Source of the DNA: Lysobacter enzymogenes
GTDB taxonomy: Bacteria > Pseudomonadota > Gammaproteobacteria > Xanthomonadales > Xanthomonadaceae
Assembly: GCF_017355525.1 (NCBI RefSeq)
Contig: NZ_CP067395.1
Span: forward strand, 3,286,001-3,350,000
Direction of reading: 5' to 3'
DNA: 64,000 nt
Every line of letters begins with the position of its first letter. Position 1 is the stretch's first letter. Position numbers and translations under genes: made by a program. The notes beneath the pieces were generated by a model, which saw only the letters and a program-made list of their open reading frames with translations, made no database searches and had not been told where the DNA came from. Below, one piece after another: positions 24,462-29,210 of the stretch.

Positions 24462-24490
24462 TCGCACCCTCTCCCATAACGACGTAACTG

Positions 24491-24606
24491 CTCCCTCTCC
24501 CGCTTGCGGGAGAGGGCCGGGGTGAGGGCAGCGCGACTGTGTTCGTTGCTTCGTCGAATCTTGAGTTCCCTCACCCCAACCCCTCTCCCGCAAGCGGGAG
24601 GGGGGC
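24491..24606. repeat. REP-like pair in inverted orientation
   Basis: Two copies of a palindromic unit, CTCTCCCGCTTGCGGGAGAG plus the arm GGGGTGAGGGC, occur head to head (24491-24532 and 24568-24606). The same unit recurs at 30956-31081 (again a pair) and at 56135-56173 (single). All copies are intergenic. Confidence 0.85.
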
Positions 24607-24747
24607 TTGATGCAGCATCGCCGTTACACGGCGCTCGAACATCCGCACGAAAAAACCCGCTCGCAAAACGACGAACGGTCTTGCAACCGAAATTTTCCGC
24701 GCGTACAGTTCGCGCCCATCTTCTTCAATCTTTCCGACCGCCTTCTC

Positions 24748-24864
24748 ATGCGCATCGAAACCAAAATCGCCAAGCTGGACGTGCAAGGGCATGACTGCCC
24801 TGCGACGTTCGCGTGCGCATCGGTGCGACGCGGTCGCGACGGTAGCTTGCACACCCCGTACTGA
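24748..24864 (+). CDS. Possible 38-aa peptide (very uncertain)
   Basis: An open frame MRIETKIAKLDVQGHDC… ends just before a hairpin and a good terminator on the same strand. It has two Cys residues and no clear ribosome site. It could equally be an RNA with no coding function. I list it because a terminated transcription unit with no other candidate product is visible here. Confidence 0.22.
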   Translation: MRIETKIAKLDVQGHDCPATFACASVRRGRDGSLHTPY

Positions 24865-24877
24865 TCTTCCCCTCCCA

Positions 24878-24902
24878 GGAAGATCGGTCGCCCCGATCTT
24901 CC
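24878..24902. other. Hairpin GGAAGATCGG/CCGATCTTCC
   Basis: A near-perfect 10-bp stem with a short loop (TCGCC) lies 13 bases after the end of the possible 38-aa frame and immediately ahead of the terminator. Its function is unknown. Confidence 0.5.
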
Positions 24903-24912
24903 GAGGAAGCAG

Positions 24913-24950
24913 ACGCCCTCGGACTTCAACTCCGGGGGCGTTTTCGTTTC
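24913..24950 (+). terminator. Rho-independent terminator of an orphan transcript
   Basis: An 11-bp stem (ACGCCCTCGGA / TCCGGGGGCGT, one T-G wobble) with a 7-base loop is followed by TTTTCGTTTC. No recognised gene precedes it on the plus strand for 450 bases, which implies a small RNA or peptide transcript. An AT-rich patch follows at 24960-25010 and may hold a promoter. Confidence 0.7.
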
Positions 24951-25261
24951 GGGCGTCGGCAAAGGATTTTCTGCAAAAAACCCCATAAAAATCGCTATTT
25001 CGCGTACACCCCCGAAGCATCCGAGACGAAGGGGATTAGCCGTCGAGGCGTAGGCCACGCTGTGCTCCGGTGCTTCGGCACGGGCGGCGCGTGCGCGAAA
25101 ACAAGCACATGGGCGTTCGCGCCCGATCGTATCGCCGTCCGGAGACGGGCGACGATTGGCAGCACCCGATGAAACGCATCGCAGCGGCGCCGATTCGCAA
25201 CCGGCCCGGTGCGCACGGCCCTGCCGTAGCGTATGCCGCGATGCGTCGAGGGGCTCCAACC

Positions 25262-25328
25262 GGGAAGGTAGCTCAGAGGTAGAGCGGCGTTGTATGCGCG
25301 GGTCGCCGGTTCGAATCCGGCCCTTCCC
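25262..25328 (+). ncRNA. tRNA-like RNA 1 (short anticodon stem)
   Basis: 67 bases. Acceptor GGGAAGG pairs with CCTTCCC (7 bp); T8-A9; D arm GCTC/GAGC; a 5-base variable region GGGTC; T arm GCCGG-TTCGAAT-CCGGC (5 bp). The anticodon arm is only 13 bases: GCG/CGC (3 bp) closing a 7-base loop TTGTATG, which would place GTA at positions 34-36. GTA would mean Tyr, but bacterial tRNA-Tyr has a long variable arm and a 5-bp anticodon stem, so this is not an ordinary tRNA. CCA is not encoded. Conserved tRNA positions in the D and T arms are intact, so the elbow fold should form. Confidence 0.7.
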
Positions 25329-25330
25329 TC

Positions 25331-25398
25331 GGATATAGCTCAGAACGGTAGAGCGCAGCACAAGATGCTGTTGTCGCGGGTTCGACTCCCGCTATCCA
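25331..25398 (+). ncRNA. tRNA-like RNA 2 (short acceptor stem)
   Basis: About 67-68 bases, starting two bases after the first. The acceptor is 5 bp (GGATA/TATCC), followed by TA, D arm GCTC/GAGC with loop AGAACGGTA, variable region TTGTC, and T arm GCGGG-TTCGACT-CCCGC. The anticodon arm is 15 bases, CAGCA-CAAGA-TGCTG (5-bp stem with 5-base loop, or 4 bp with 7); position 33 would not be U. The D and T arms are canonical while the functional ends are abnormal. That is decay, or selection for a tRNA-shaped RNA that does not translate. Confidence 0.68.
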
Positions 25399-25441
25399 CT
25401 GTCTTGAAACGACAGTCGTTGCAACCGGAACGAAAGTTCCG
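25398..25441 (+). other. Two hairpins downstream of the tRNA-like RNAs
   Basis: The first is a 6-bp stem ACTGTC/GACAGT with the 7-base loop TTGAAAC (25398-25416), shaped like a free anticodon arm. The second is a 6-bp stem CGGAAC/GTTCCG capped by a GAAA tetraloop (25426-25441). Both lie between the tRNA-like RNAs and the slipin gene on the same strand. Confidence 0.6.
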
Positions 25442-25831
25442 ACCCGGGAAACGCTCCGCGCGGCGTCCGCCTGCGCATCGCTTTCACAGGATGCGCCGAC
25501 GAACGAAGCAGCGGCGACACCGCCGGCTTCATGCCCGGCGGGCGATGGAACGGCGTCGCGCGGTATCGGCCACAACGGACGTGGCGATGCCGGCGACGAC
25601 GATGCCACGCCCGCCGCGCATGCGGTCCGCGATGACGGCGCCAGGGGCGTTCCCACCCTATTTCGCTTGGCTGCATTTGCGCAGCACGGCATCGAAACCG
25701 GCATCGCCGCGCTTGCGCGCTGCGCCACCGCCCGCGTCGCCGACGCGACCCACCGCGCCGCCGCGACCATCCGATTCGGTCGCAACGGCCCACACCACGG
25801 ATCGGACCACCGGAACTTCAAGGAAAAAGCC
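25442..25831 (+). other. Long leader before the slipin gene
   Basis: 390 bases with no supported gene. Frames on both strands are open but have shadow-like composition. One plus-strand frame is continuous with the slipin gene, so an N-terminal extension is formally possible. I prefer an untranslated leader because AAGGAAAAAG sits directly before the slipin ATG. Confidence 0.5.
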
Positions 25832-26962
25832 ATGTTCTGGATGAAGAAGGTCGTGGTCGGCGATGCCGAGCGCGCCCTGGTTTACCGCGACCGCCGCATC
25901 GAGCGCGTGCTCGGCCCGGGCGTCCACACCTTGTGGGACGTGCGCGACCGCATTCGCCTGAATCACTACGACATCGCCAACAGCGCCTACGCCGGCAACG
26001 ACAGCGAAGCGCTGATCGCCGGCCTCGGCGAGCGCCTGTCCGACCATTTCGTTCTCGCCGACATCGGCAACGACGAAGTCGGTCTGGTCCTGCGCAACGG
26101 CCGCTACGCCGAAGTGCTGGCGCCGGGCCTGCGCCGCCTGTACTGGAAGGGCCTGGCGCAGATCGAGGTGCGCGCGCTGACGCTGAGCGCGGGCCTGGCG
26201 ATCGAGCGCGAGGTCGCCGACGGCCTGCGCCAGATCGCCCAGCTCGACCGCGTCGCCGTGCACGGCAACGTGCCGACCGAATCGGCCGGCCTGCTGTTCG
26301 TCGACGGCACCTTCGTGCGCACCCTGGCCCCGGGCGCTTACGCGTTCTGGAACCTGCGCAAGAACGTAGTCGTGGAAACCGTGGAACTGCGCGTGCAGGC
26401 GGTCGAAGTCTCGGGCCAGGAACTGCTGACCCGCGACAAGGTCACTCTGCGCGTCAACCTCGCCGCCAGCGTGCGCGTCGTCGATCCGGTCGCCGCGCGC
26501 ACCAAGGTCTCGCGCTACAACGAACAGATCTATCGCGAACTGCAGTACGGCCTGCGCAAGGCGGTCTCGTCCAAGACCCTGGACGAACTGCTCGGCGACA
26601 AGGCCTCGCTCGACGCGGACATCCTCGCCAGCGCGCGCGAAGCCTGCGCGTCGATCGGCGTGGAAGTGCTCGGCGTCGGCGTCAAGGACGTGATCCTGCC
26701 GGGCGAGATGAAGGACATCCTCAACGCGGTGGTGCAGGCGGAGAAGACCGCCCAGGCCAACACCATCCGCCGCCGCGAGGAAGCCAACGCGACCCGCAGC
26801 CTGCTCAACACCGCCAAGCTGATCGAGGACTCTCCGGTGCTGATGCGCCTGAAGGAACTCGAGGCCTTGGAAAAAATCACCGAAAAGATCGACAAGCTGA
26901 CCGTCTTCGGCGGTCTGGAGGGAGTCATGAAGGAACTCGTCAGCCTGAAGGCCGACGGCTGA
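25832..26962 (+). CDS. Slipin (SPFH/band 7) family protein
   Basis: 376 aa from MFWMKKVVVGDAERALVY, with AAGGA upstream. The central SPFH/band-7 domain (about residues 120-300) shows LLFVDGTFVRTLAPGAYAFW, VSGQELLTRDKVTLRVNLAA and LREAV-like YGLRKAVSSKTLDELL, then VEVLGVGVKDVILPGEMKDI. A C-terminal coiled coil (about 300-365, QAEKTAQANTIRRREEANAT) follows. Unusually, I see no N-terminal hydrophobic hairpin, so membrane anchoring may be peripheral. Band-7 proteins oligomerise into scaffolds. Here it leads the gene order slipin - uncharacterised - rtcB behind two tRNA-like RNAs. It is likely co-transcribed with both genes. Confidence 0.9.
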   Translation: MFWMKKVVVGDAERALVYRDRRIERVLGPGVHTLWDVRDRIRLNHYDIANSAYAGNDSEALIAGLGERLSDHFVLADIGNDEVGLVLRNGRYAEVLAPGLRRLYWKGLAQIEVRALTLSAGLAIEREVADGLRQIAQLDRVAVHGNVPTESAGLLFVDGTFVRTLAPGAYAFWNLRKNVVVETVELRVQAVEVSGQELLTRDKVTLRVNLAASVRVVDPVAARTKVSRYNEQIYRELQYGLRKAVSSKTLDELLGDKASLDADILASAREACASIGVEVLGVGVKDVILPGEMKDILNAVVQAEKTAQANTIRRREEANATRSLLNTAKLIEDSPVLMRLKELEALEKITEKIDKLTVFGGLEGVMKELVSLKADG

Positions 26963-27107: not shown

Positions 27108-27974
27108 ATGCGAAACGATATGTACAAAGTGATCGTGGAACGGCCGCGCCGCGGCGGCGGCTGGACCAAACCGGGACGCGAACCGCGCGAGCCGGACGAC
27201 CGTCCCGCCCACGAAGGCATCCGCGAGCGGCTGCGCGGAGGCAGGAAATGGCTCAACGAAAACCTGCGTCCGCTGCAGCGCTGGCTGGATCGGCAGGCGG
27301 GCCGCCGTTGGGACGCGGTCTACGCGGAACTGTGCAAGCACGTGGATCGGCGCAACACCGTGCAGCAGCACATCCATGTGCATCTGCGCGATTTCGTCGA
27401 AATCGACGTGTACGAAAGCGACGGCCGGCTCTACGCCATCCGTCGCTGGCGCGGCACGGCCCCACTGGCCGACAGCTACTGCGACCTGTATGTGGACCCG
27501 CGCAACGGCTGCCTGATGCGCAACGAAGCCGCGTTCGCCGCCCGCGTGCGCCGACGCGCCGAGCACCGTCTTGCGGTGCATGCGCGGCAAGCGGGCTGGC
27601 GCGAAGGCGTGCGGGTCGTCGACGGCGAGGTGCAGCTGCATCGTCTGGACGGCATCTGGTACCGGATCGAACTCGCGCCGGTGCCGAAACCGCGGCCGTC
27701 CAAGCGCAAGGCCGGCGTCAGTTTGCCCGGGCGCGCGTTCGACGCGGTGTTGCATGCGCAGGTCGGCGAGTGCGCAAGCAAACGCTTGAACCTGTACGGC
27801 CGTTGCGGCGTGTATGCGCGCAGCAAACGGCAGTTGAATCAAGCCGAGCTGATCGCCTGTCGGCTGCGCAACGGCGACGGGCCCGACCCGTTCGACCCGC
27901 GCGCGCTCGCGGCGGCGGCGCTTGCGGCCGGCCGCAAGCGCCGCTCGCCGTGGCGCACCGGCGCACCCCATTAA
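27108..27974 (+). CDS. Uncharacterised basic protein between slipin and rtcB
   Basis: 288 aa from MRNDMYKVIVERPRRGGG; a start four codons later (MYKVIVERP) is equally plausible. It is rich in Arg. A recognisable core reads WLNENLRPLQRWLDRQAGR then WDAVYAEL…NTVQQHIHVHLRDFV, followed by LYVDPRNGCL. The C-terminal part has YARSKRQLNQAELIACRLRN and a basic tail. I recall homologues in the same slot beside slipin and RtcB in other bacteria but know no function or domain name. The high positive charge fits RNA or tRNA binding (inference). The next gene, rtcB, starts 15 bases after its stop. Confidence 0.8.
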   Translation: MRNDMYKVIVERPRRGGGWTKPGREPREPDDRPAHEGIRERLRGGRKWLNENLRPLQRWLDRQAGRRWDAVYAELCKHVDRRNTVQQHIHVHLRDFVEIDVYESDGRLYAIRRWRGTAPLADSYCDLYVDPRNGCLMRNEAAFAARVRRRAEHRLAVHARQAGWREGVRVVDGEVQLHRLDGIWYRIELAPVPKPRPSKRKAGVSLPGRAFDAVLHAQVGECASKRLNLYGRCGVYARSKRQLNQAELIACRLRNGDGPDPFDPRALAAAALAAGRKRRSPWRTGAPH

Positions 27975-27989
27975 GAAGGACGAAGCACC

Positions 27990-29210
27990 ATGACTACCTC
28001 AAACTACCAACTACTCCACGCCGACGAAGGCGTGGCCCCGGTCAAGGCCTGGATCCGCGGGGTGCCGGTCGACGACAGCGCCAAGCATCAGCTGCGCAAC
28101 ATCGCCGCCCTGCCCCACGTCGGCCCCTGGGTCGCGGCCATGCCCGACGTGCATCTGGGCAAGGGCGCGACCGTCGGCTCGGTGGTGCCGACCCGCGGCG
28201 CGATCATCCCGGCCGCGGTCGGCGTCGACATCGGCTGCGGCATGGCCGCGGTGCGCACGACCCTGCGCGCCAGCGACCTGCCCGACAGCCTGGCCAAGCT
28301 GCGCTCGGCGATCGAGCACTGCGTCCCGGTCGGCAACGGCCGCGGCGGCGAACACCGGCGCCTGCCCGACAGCCACGCGACCCGCCTGGCCAAGTCCGGG
28401 TTGGCGACGCGGCTCGACGCGATCCACGCCAAGCACCGCCGGCTGCGCACCGACAAGCTCGACAAGCAGATCGGCACGCTCGGCGGCGGCAACCACTTCA
28501 TCGAGGTCTGCCTCGACGAAGCCGGCGCGGTGTGGGTGATGCTGCATTCGGGCTCGCGCGGCACCGGCAACCTCATCGGCAGCTATTTCATCGAGCTGGC
28601 GCGGATGAAGCTGGAAAAGCGCACGCTCGGCTTCCATCTGCCGGACAAGGACCTGGCCTTCCTGCTCGAGGGCGAGCCCTTGTTCGACGACTACGTCGAA
28701 GCGGTCGGCTGGGCCCAGGACTACGCCCGCCACAACCGCGAGGCGATGATGGAACGCACGCTGCACGCGATGCGCATCCAGCTGCCGAAGTTCAAGCTCG
28801 ACAAGACCGCGGTCAACTGTCACCACAACTACGTGCAGCGCGAGGACCACTTCGGCGAATCGCTGTGGGTGACGCGCAAGGGCGCGGTCAGCGCGCGCGA
28901 GGGCGAGCTCGGCATCATCCCCGGCAGCATGGGCGCGCGCAGCTACATCGTGCGCGGCAAGGGCAACGCCGACAGCTTCCACAGCTGCAGCCACGGCGCC
29001 GGCCGGGTCATGAGCCGGGCCGAGGCCCGGCGCAGCATCACCCTGAAGGACCATCGCGCCGCGACGGCGCATGTGGAATGCCGCAAGGACGCGGCGGTCA
29101 TCGACGAATCGCCGGCGGCGTACAAGCCGATCGAGGCGGTGATGGCGGCGCAGTCCGATCTGGTCGAGGTGGTGCACACCTTGCGCCAGGTGGTCTGCAT
29201 CAAGGGTTGA
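27990..29210 (+). CDS. rtcB: RNA-splicing ligase RtcB
   Basis: 406 aa; AAGGACG precedes the ATG. It joins RNA 3'-phosphate or 2',3'-cyclic phosphate ends to 5'-OH ends using GTP and Mn2+. All signatures are present: GVDIGCGM (metal-binding Cys83), GTLGGGNHF (His169), MLHSGSRGTGN (His186), NCHHNY (His278-279), IIPGSMGARSYIVRGKG, and SCSHGAGRVMSR, whose His335 corresponds to the guanylylated His of E. coli RtcB. The length is normal for the bacterial form. No rtcA, prfH or sigma-54-type rtcR is adjacent; instead it is grouped with the slipin gene and the tRNA-like RNAs, so tRNA anticodon-loop repair is the natural proposal. Confidence 0.96.
   Translation: MTTSNYQLLHADEGVAPVKAWIRGVPVDDSAKHQLRNIAALPHVGPWVAAMPDVHLGKGATVGSVVPTRGAIIPAAVGVDIGCGMAAVRTTLRASDLPDSLAKLRSAIEHCVPVGNGRGGEHRRLPDSHATRLAKSGLATRLDAIHAKHRRLRTDKLDKQIGTLGGGNHFIEVCLDEAGAVWVMLHSGSRGTGNLIGSYFIELARMKLEKRTLGFHLPDKDLAFLLEGEPLFDDYVEAVGWAQDYARHNREAMMERTLHAMRIQLPKFKLDKTAVNCHHNYVQREDHFGESLWVTRKGAVSAREGELGIIPGSMGARSYIVRGKGNADSFHSCSHGAGRVMSRAEARRSITLKDHRAATAHVECRKDAAVIDESPAAYKPIEAVMAAQSDLVEVVHTLRQVVCIKG

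Follow-up and report, generated by a model that had tools for sequence, protein, structure and literature searches.

A conserved structured RNA with tandem tRNA-like modules ahead of slipin genes in Lysobacter enzymogenes and its relatives

The DNA analysed here, called the window below, comprises 64,000 nucleotides of the Lysobacter enzymogenes genome (assembly GCF_017355525.1, contig NZ_CP067395.1, positions 3,286,001-3,350,000 of the forward strand); positions are given within the window. Three genes, all on the forward strand, follow the RNA described below on its 3′ side. The first, at 25832-26962, encodes a slipin, i.e., an SPFH/Band 7 protein (PF01145, E 1e-30); it is followed by a gene for a basic protein of 288 amino acids (27108-27974) and by rtcB, coding for the RNA ligase (27990-29210; PF01139, E 6.9e-126). 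For the basic protein, an accessory component, no family was found in Pfam, NCBIfam or PADLOC. Its AlphaFold model, calculated with 15 sequences, has a mean pLDDT of 72.7 and a pTM of 0.44, and a Foldseek comparison with the PDB gave no match with E ≤ 0.001. On the other side of the RNA, a short open reading frame (MRIETKIAKLDVQG...) and then a hairpin with a run of T residues are present at 24749-24960, and a similar terminator-like sequence is visible 5′ of the RNA in some relatives. A long inverted repeat of the type CTCTCCCGC...GCGGGAGAG was noticed by eye at 24490-24610.

Two tRNA-like units lie upstream of slipin (25262-25329 and 25331-25397, forward strand), identified from the sequence, by ARAGORN, by Rfam and by covariation. 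An earlier, sequence-only reading had described them as tandem non-canonical tRNA-like RNAs, about two bases apart and on the strand common to slipin and rtcB, and this description is correct. ARAGORN names them Tyr-gta (25262-25330) and Leu-aag (25329-25400), while the Rfam tRNA model RF00005 gives 53.1 and 42.2 bits, both above the cut-off of 29; when all 54 tRNA matches in the genome are ordered by score, the two come 50th and last. Unit 1 has a 7-bp acceptor stem (GGGAAGG/CCTTCCC), normal D and T arms and an anticodon arm (25287-25299) with a stem of just 3 bp (GCG-TTGTATG-CGC). Unit 2 has a 5-bp acceptor stem (GGATA/TATCC) and a 15-nt anticodon arm (CAGCA-CAAGA-TGCTG, 25356-25370), the loop of which (25361-25365) is 5 nt long and not tRNA-like; in most relatives it measures 7 nt. 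The intact D and T arms and the shortened stems had all been pointed out before and can be read directly from the sequence.

Of 149 genomes of the family searched at the DNA level, 69 have a match, short tRNA-like matches counted, and slipin adjoins the match in 27 of the 30 loci examined (the window's genome counted). A search with a slipin alignment yielded 168 relatives, the best 80 of which were taken as loci, mostly from Lysobacteraceae and Rhodanobacteraceae; three of these (L047, L088 and L107) come without upstream DNA and were dropped, leaving 77 testable loci. In all 77, a profile of the tandem matches 5′ of slipin, covering at least 100 of its 155 positions in 76 loci and 33 in the remaining one (L103). 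Within 900 nt upstream of slipin and on its strand, ARAGORN found 111 matches in 69 of the 77 loci, against 2 matches elsewhere in the 80 loci, which comprise 776 kb. Isotypes are called differently from locus to locus, with no assignment possible for 37 of these 111 matches.

By sequence search, in which divergent copies could escape, rtcB is present downstream of slipin in 76 of these best 80 loci, and the basic protein, by tblastn, in 16; the earlier suggestion that the RNAs are ligands of the basic protein does not hold as a general rule. The four loci in which rtcB was not found are L057, L090, L094 and L096, the last of which stops at slipin. For L057 and L090, the open reading frames 3′ of slipin were read and contain no rtcB in the stretch read; as both have the RNA and slipin, the RNA appears tied to slipin rather than to rtcB. 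From the gene content of the loci, the RNA follows slipin, with rtcB as its usual companion and the basic protein as an optional one.

The tandem is not an isolated element. In an L-INS-i alignment of about 800 nt upstream of slipin from 72 of 78 loci (the 77 relatives, from the best 80 of 168, and the window), conserved blocks reach well beyond the two units, and the RNAalifold consensus fold of the 64 sequences left after an identity filter spans about 640-700 nt. Judged from alignment, consensus fold, covariation and single-sequence fold, the tandem units are modules in the middle of a conserved structured RNA of about 640 nt (around 25012-25654, forward strand), the 3′ end of which lies some 180 nt before slipin. 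The sequence-only reading was right about the tandem but missed this surrounding structure. The predicted RNA starts with a 5′ helix (25012-25078), in which CCGAAGCATC (25012-25021) pairs with GGTGCTTCGG (25069-25078), seen in the consensus and single-sequence folds and the weakest in covariation. After a stem comes the core domain (25156-25260), recognised from the alignment and pair counts, with closing helices and two hairpins; the model R1 matches it at 25156-25259. One core hairpin is near-invariant (GTGCGC...GCGTAT); another looks T-loop-like by eye in many relatives. Beyond the tRNA-like units and further hairpins, the 3′ domain (25446-25654) is closed by GGGAAACGCTCC (25446-25457) with GGGGCGTTCCC (25644-25654), supported by the consensus fold and covariation. 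By eye, GGAAACGCCCC can pair either locally with GGCGTTTC or distally with GGGGCGTTTCC (wide-alignment columns 504-514, 516-527 and 701-711, roughly 25446-25654 in the window), a possible switch.

Covariation was assessed per domain, with sub-alignments hand-picked from the 64 sequences (A2, for the core domain, 41; A3, 49). In the tandem, 96.5% of the cells are paired and 23 of 38 pairs have changed on both sides; in the core domain the values are 92.0% and 20 of 37. For these two, no shuffle out of 500 and no slid version of the structure equals any of the measures. Two cautions hold for all domains: kinship among sequences can beat shuffles without any structure, and the structures were drawn from the very alignments on which they are scored, giving them an edge over their slid versions. 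The stem (columns 187-212) is 93.6% paired and the hairpins (columns 461-497) 95.0% (200 shuffles each). In the 3′ domain, 82.8% of the cells are paired and 656 have changed on both sides, a number that does not exceed 303 in any shuffle. The 5′ helix domain, the weakest, has 78.8% of its cells paired, where shuffles average 75.4%, and 94 cells changed on both sides, where shuffles give at most 67 (200 shuffles in both cases). Taken alone, the window RNA has a better predicted fold than any of its 20 shuffled versions (z = −3.63). A scan of 24700-25900 with Rfam 15 returned the two tRNA matches, a stretch of YrlA at 28.2 bits (cut-off 69) and weak, sub-threshold and chance-looking matches to MIR1437, Flavo-1 and Plastid-ycf2; only the tRNA modules of the large RNA are represented in Rfam 15.

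At the level of the class, 369 gammaproteobacterial genomes were searched with the slipin alignment, and 21 of them match (E ≤ 1e-50). In 12 of these 21 loci R1 matches as well (E ≤ 0.001); an ARAGORN unit is found within 900 nt in 14, a T and a D arm in three, a T arm alone in two and nothing in two. One locus (L174, at 900-1400) carries three tRNA-like units in tandem ahead of slipin. R1 also matches the Photobacterium leader (E 2e-6), Burkholderia weakly and partially (0.0075 and 0.02) and, beside slipin and rtcB, Subdoligranulum, a Firmicute (E 4e-4). The Burkholderia and Photobacterium leaders contain ARAGORN units and tandem-profile matches (E 3e-9 to 3e-24). By these sequence matches, other Gammaproteobacteria and Burkholderia have related leaders, in which the number of units ranges from one to three, and a Firmicute probably has one as well. 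Direct R1 scans with strict filters (E ≤ 0.01) gave matches in 16 of 369 genomes of the class and 23 of 398 of the phylum. Slipin is present in 10 of the resulting 39 loci, and most of those without it match weakly, probably by chance; at L141, a strong R1 match accompanies a tRNA-like unit and the sequence stops about 430 nt after the match. A search for carriage by phages gave one short, distant slipin match among 50,697 records.

Slipin and a nucleotidyltransferase gene occur together in E. coli (near lysC-pgi) and in Citrobacter (loci L113 and L114); in Citrobacter the nucleotidyltransferase gene follows slipin and rtcR is divergent. A locus matching that of E. coli is present in 1624 of 5426 complete genomes. 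Both leaders show T-arm-like hairpins by eye and a sigma-54-like box before slipin. L113 and L114 give neither an ARAGORN hit nor an R1 match, and we therefore do not claim that they are the same as the Lysobacter RNA.

Across relatives (loci from the best 80 of 168), the two units differ in character. Strict patterns find two units in 59 of 78 loci (77 and the window), one in 17 and none in two. In unit 1, maximal pairing, a procedure that shortens loops, leaves an anticodon loop 3-5 nt long in 48 of the 63 copies, 13 of the 48 being GNRA tetraloops, and the canonical spacing of 23 nt is kept in 14 of the 63. Its other arms are normal, its acceptor stem covaries, with 5-7 paired positions across loci, and an A-CCA-like 3′ end is often present ahead of unit 2. 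The acceptor of unit 2 has 4-7 paired positions and is short in most loci (4 bp modelled). The 23-nt spacing is present in 59 of 72 unit 2 copies, 58 of them with five paired stem positions, and the loops of these 59 keep a tRNA-like signature (C32 in 38, U33 in 41, A37 in 52 and A38 in 42), with variable positions 34-36: there are 44 distinct loops and 27 anticodons. From these alignments, unit 1 usually has no 7-nt anticodon loop and unit 2 has a variable one. The 3-bp anticodon stem and the 5-bp acceptor are local variants of the window. The claim that the functional ends are defective survives in that the units look unsuited to decoding, but not as a general rule for these two features. 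A 7-nt anticodon loop, U33 and an identity fixed among relatives, as expected of a tRNA, were not found together in the units. That unit 2 loops are copies of real tRNA loops was considered and set aside: exact matches to tRNA loops of the window's genome number 13 of 59 against 7.8 by column shuffling (p = 0.02), a weak excess at most, and the distinct loops show no excess of such matches (p = 0.36).

The unit 2 loop changes fast. In 35 close pairs of loci (RNAs less than 15% different; the pairs overlap), 103 of 238 loop sites differ (43%), against 962 of 7366 slipin four-fold sites (13%), the divergence of which codon bias may depress. In the same pairs, divergence is 4.0% in the unit 2 T arm and 5.5% in the unit 2 anticodon stem; it comes to 11.5% for the remainder of the RNA and to 21.6% for the linker between RNA and slipin. 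Ten non-overlapping pairs give 24 of 68 loop sites against 223 of 2116 four-fold sites (Fisher p = 1e-7), and the loop exceeds the slipin four-fold rate in 31 of the 35 pairs and falls below it in four. Of the 653 seven-column windows in the RNA, none diverges more than the loop. Some windows in the 3′ domain reach 35-40%, and the fast change of the loop may therefore reflect relaxation and not diversification; its variation could be neutral and only loosely constrained. Change per position is uneven, however, at 12% for position 37, around 60% for 33, 34 and 36, and 48% for 38, and the conservation of position 37 suggests that the loop is not simply free.

These comparisons establish, at the level of sequence, a conserved place before slipin, a covarying fold, modules seemingly unsuited to decoding and a rapidly changing unit 2 loop. 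The lack of a normal anticodon loop in unit 1 and the fast loop of unit 2 suggest a bait or sensor for tRNA-cutting enzymes; the variable loop fits decoy, bait and sensor ideas and proves none of them. We give slightly better than even chances to the ~640-nt RNA acting as partner in an RNA-repair system that is built on slipin and usually contains RtcB, bait and capture mechanism included. The most economical reading would be a slipin RNA-protein particle parallel to that of Ro60 and YrlA. At the membrane, the RNA would bind a slipin assembly in the way that Ro60 is bound by Y RNA, and its tRNA-like modules, offering an elbow and an anticodon loop, would recruit factors that act on tRNA. Because the loop is variable and a ligase is encoded, it could serve as bait, cut by anticodon nucleases and resealable by RtcB. 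The particle might thereby capture the nuclease or signal tRNA damage.

A possible, though rather unlikely, alternative is a cis-acting leader that senses tRNA damage or processing state, through cleavage of the units or access of RNase P, and sets transcription or translation of slipin and rtcB. The RNA immediately precedes slipin and shares its strand; by eye, no T-rich terminator is evident in between. Of 27 leaders from outside or beyond the Lysobacteraceae set, four (those of E. coli, Citrobacter and two Burkholderia) have a sigma-54-like TGGCAC box with 9 of 10 matches upstream of slipin, with 0.39 expected from shuffling and a maximum of 2 in 100 mononucleotide shuffles. However, a sigma-54 promoter ahead of the Lysobacteraceae RNA had to be discarded, since no consistently placed site was found in the 41 Lysobacteraceae-type loci scanned, and the variable linker is without an obvious conserved expression platform. 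The size and ornateness of the slipin RNA also go beyond those of usual sensor leaders.

In another alternative, RNase P and enzymes like it would release the units from a mere carrier transcript, and the units would then work as free small decoy RNAs. This would agree with the near-canonical acceptor and frequent A-CCA-like end of unit 1 and with unit numbers that vary from one to three. We think it improbable, as the core and 3′ domains covary well above shuffles and are conserved alongside the units, and the short unit 2 acceptor of most loci also argues against it.

The genome contains a second RNA-repair locus (L112, G000:C1:2945000-2960000), with a Ro60-like gene recognised by eye from its open reading frame, three YrlA-like matches (67.5, 65.0 and 28.5 bits, all under the cut-off of 69), rtcB and RtcR (PF06956); the Ro60-like gene is about 355 kb from the slipin-rtcB locus. 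It is a parallel set of tRNA mimic, scaffold and ligase. Like YrlA (RF02553), found with Ro60/Rsr in rtcB operons, the slipin RNA is a tRNA mimic by rtcB with a scaffold protein and a T arm followed by a D arm; unlike it, the slipin RNA has slipin in place of Ro60, full clover leaves with anticodon arms and a much larger size. A true YrlA relocated to slipin might be suspected from this sister locus and from the match spanning the T arm of unit 1 and the D arm of unit 2, but it is very improbable: the match is far under the cut-off, includes model positions 27-81 of 114 and leaves the basal, Ro-binding stem unmatched, and adjacent T and D arms of any origin would earn part of the score. No Ro60 gene is present at the slipin locus, the neighbours being slipin, the basic protein and RtcB. 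That the units are ordinary, suppressor or decayed tRNA genes at a chance position is hardly credible even though ARAGORN and Rfam both call them tRNAs, given that the stems covary, that the position is kept in the 77 testable loci (from the best 80 of 168), so that the decay proposed earlier as a refutation does not apply, that unit 1 loops are often 3-5 nt long and that isotypes differ or cannot be assigned.

The association itself is probably not new. Burroughs and Aravind 2016 (NAR, gkw722) reportedly name SPFH/Band-7 modules and RtcB with a novel tRNA-like molecule. The gene partners and the tRNA-like RNA are alike, the window locus has what this definition names, a tRNA-like RNA adjoining SPFH and RtcB genes, and very probably it is the same association. 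OLE, GOLLD and ROOL, which Rfam presumably holds, are likewise large, elaborate and conserved bacterial RNAs, and OLE is said to work with membrane proteins; none matched 24700-25900 at E ≤ 1 in Rfam, and the slipin RNA differs in carrying tRNA modules and being tied to slipin. In Hughes et al. (2020), the tRNA-like domain of YrlA is named as a possible competitive inhibitor of the nuclease, and a review of RNA modifications describes YrlA and this domain. In P. aeruginosa, according to another study, the rtc locus includes an SPFH gene, the main text being without the word tRNA, and in Anabaena deletion of trcR raises, among other genes, rtcB and one for a slipin. Titles and abstract openings on slipin, SPFH or Band-7 with RtcB and tRNA-like RNAs, subscription papers falling mostly outside the search, gave no description of the slipin RNA, nor was a slipin-linked RNA mentioned in passages of further papers.

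RNA-repair operons are widespread. The slipin RNA would add another tRNA mimic to an RNA-repair locus, with a loop that varies as a bait might, making the decoy question directly testable, and it pairs a large structured RNA, outside Rfam save for its tRNA modules, with an SPFH protein. More speculatively, and in our judgement unlikely, it could represent a new class of large non-coding RNA held in a slipin membrane cage, its loop under diversifying selection as a nuclease bait resealed by RtcB. If true, it would be the RNA counterpart of a decoy receptor in an arms race over tRNAs.
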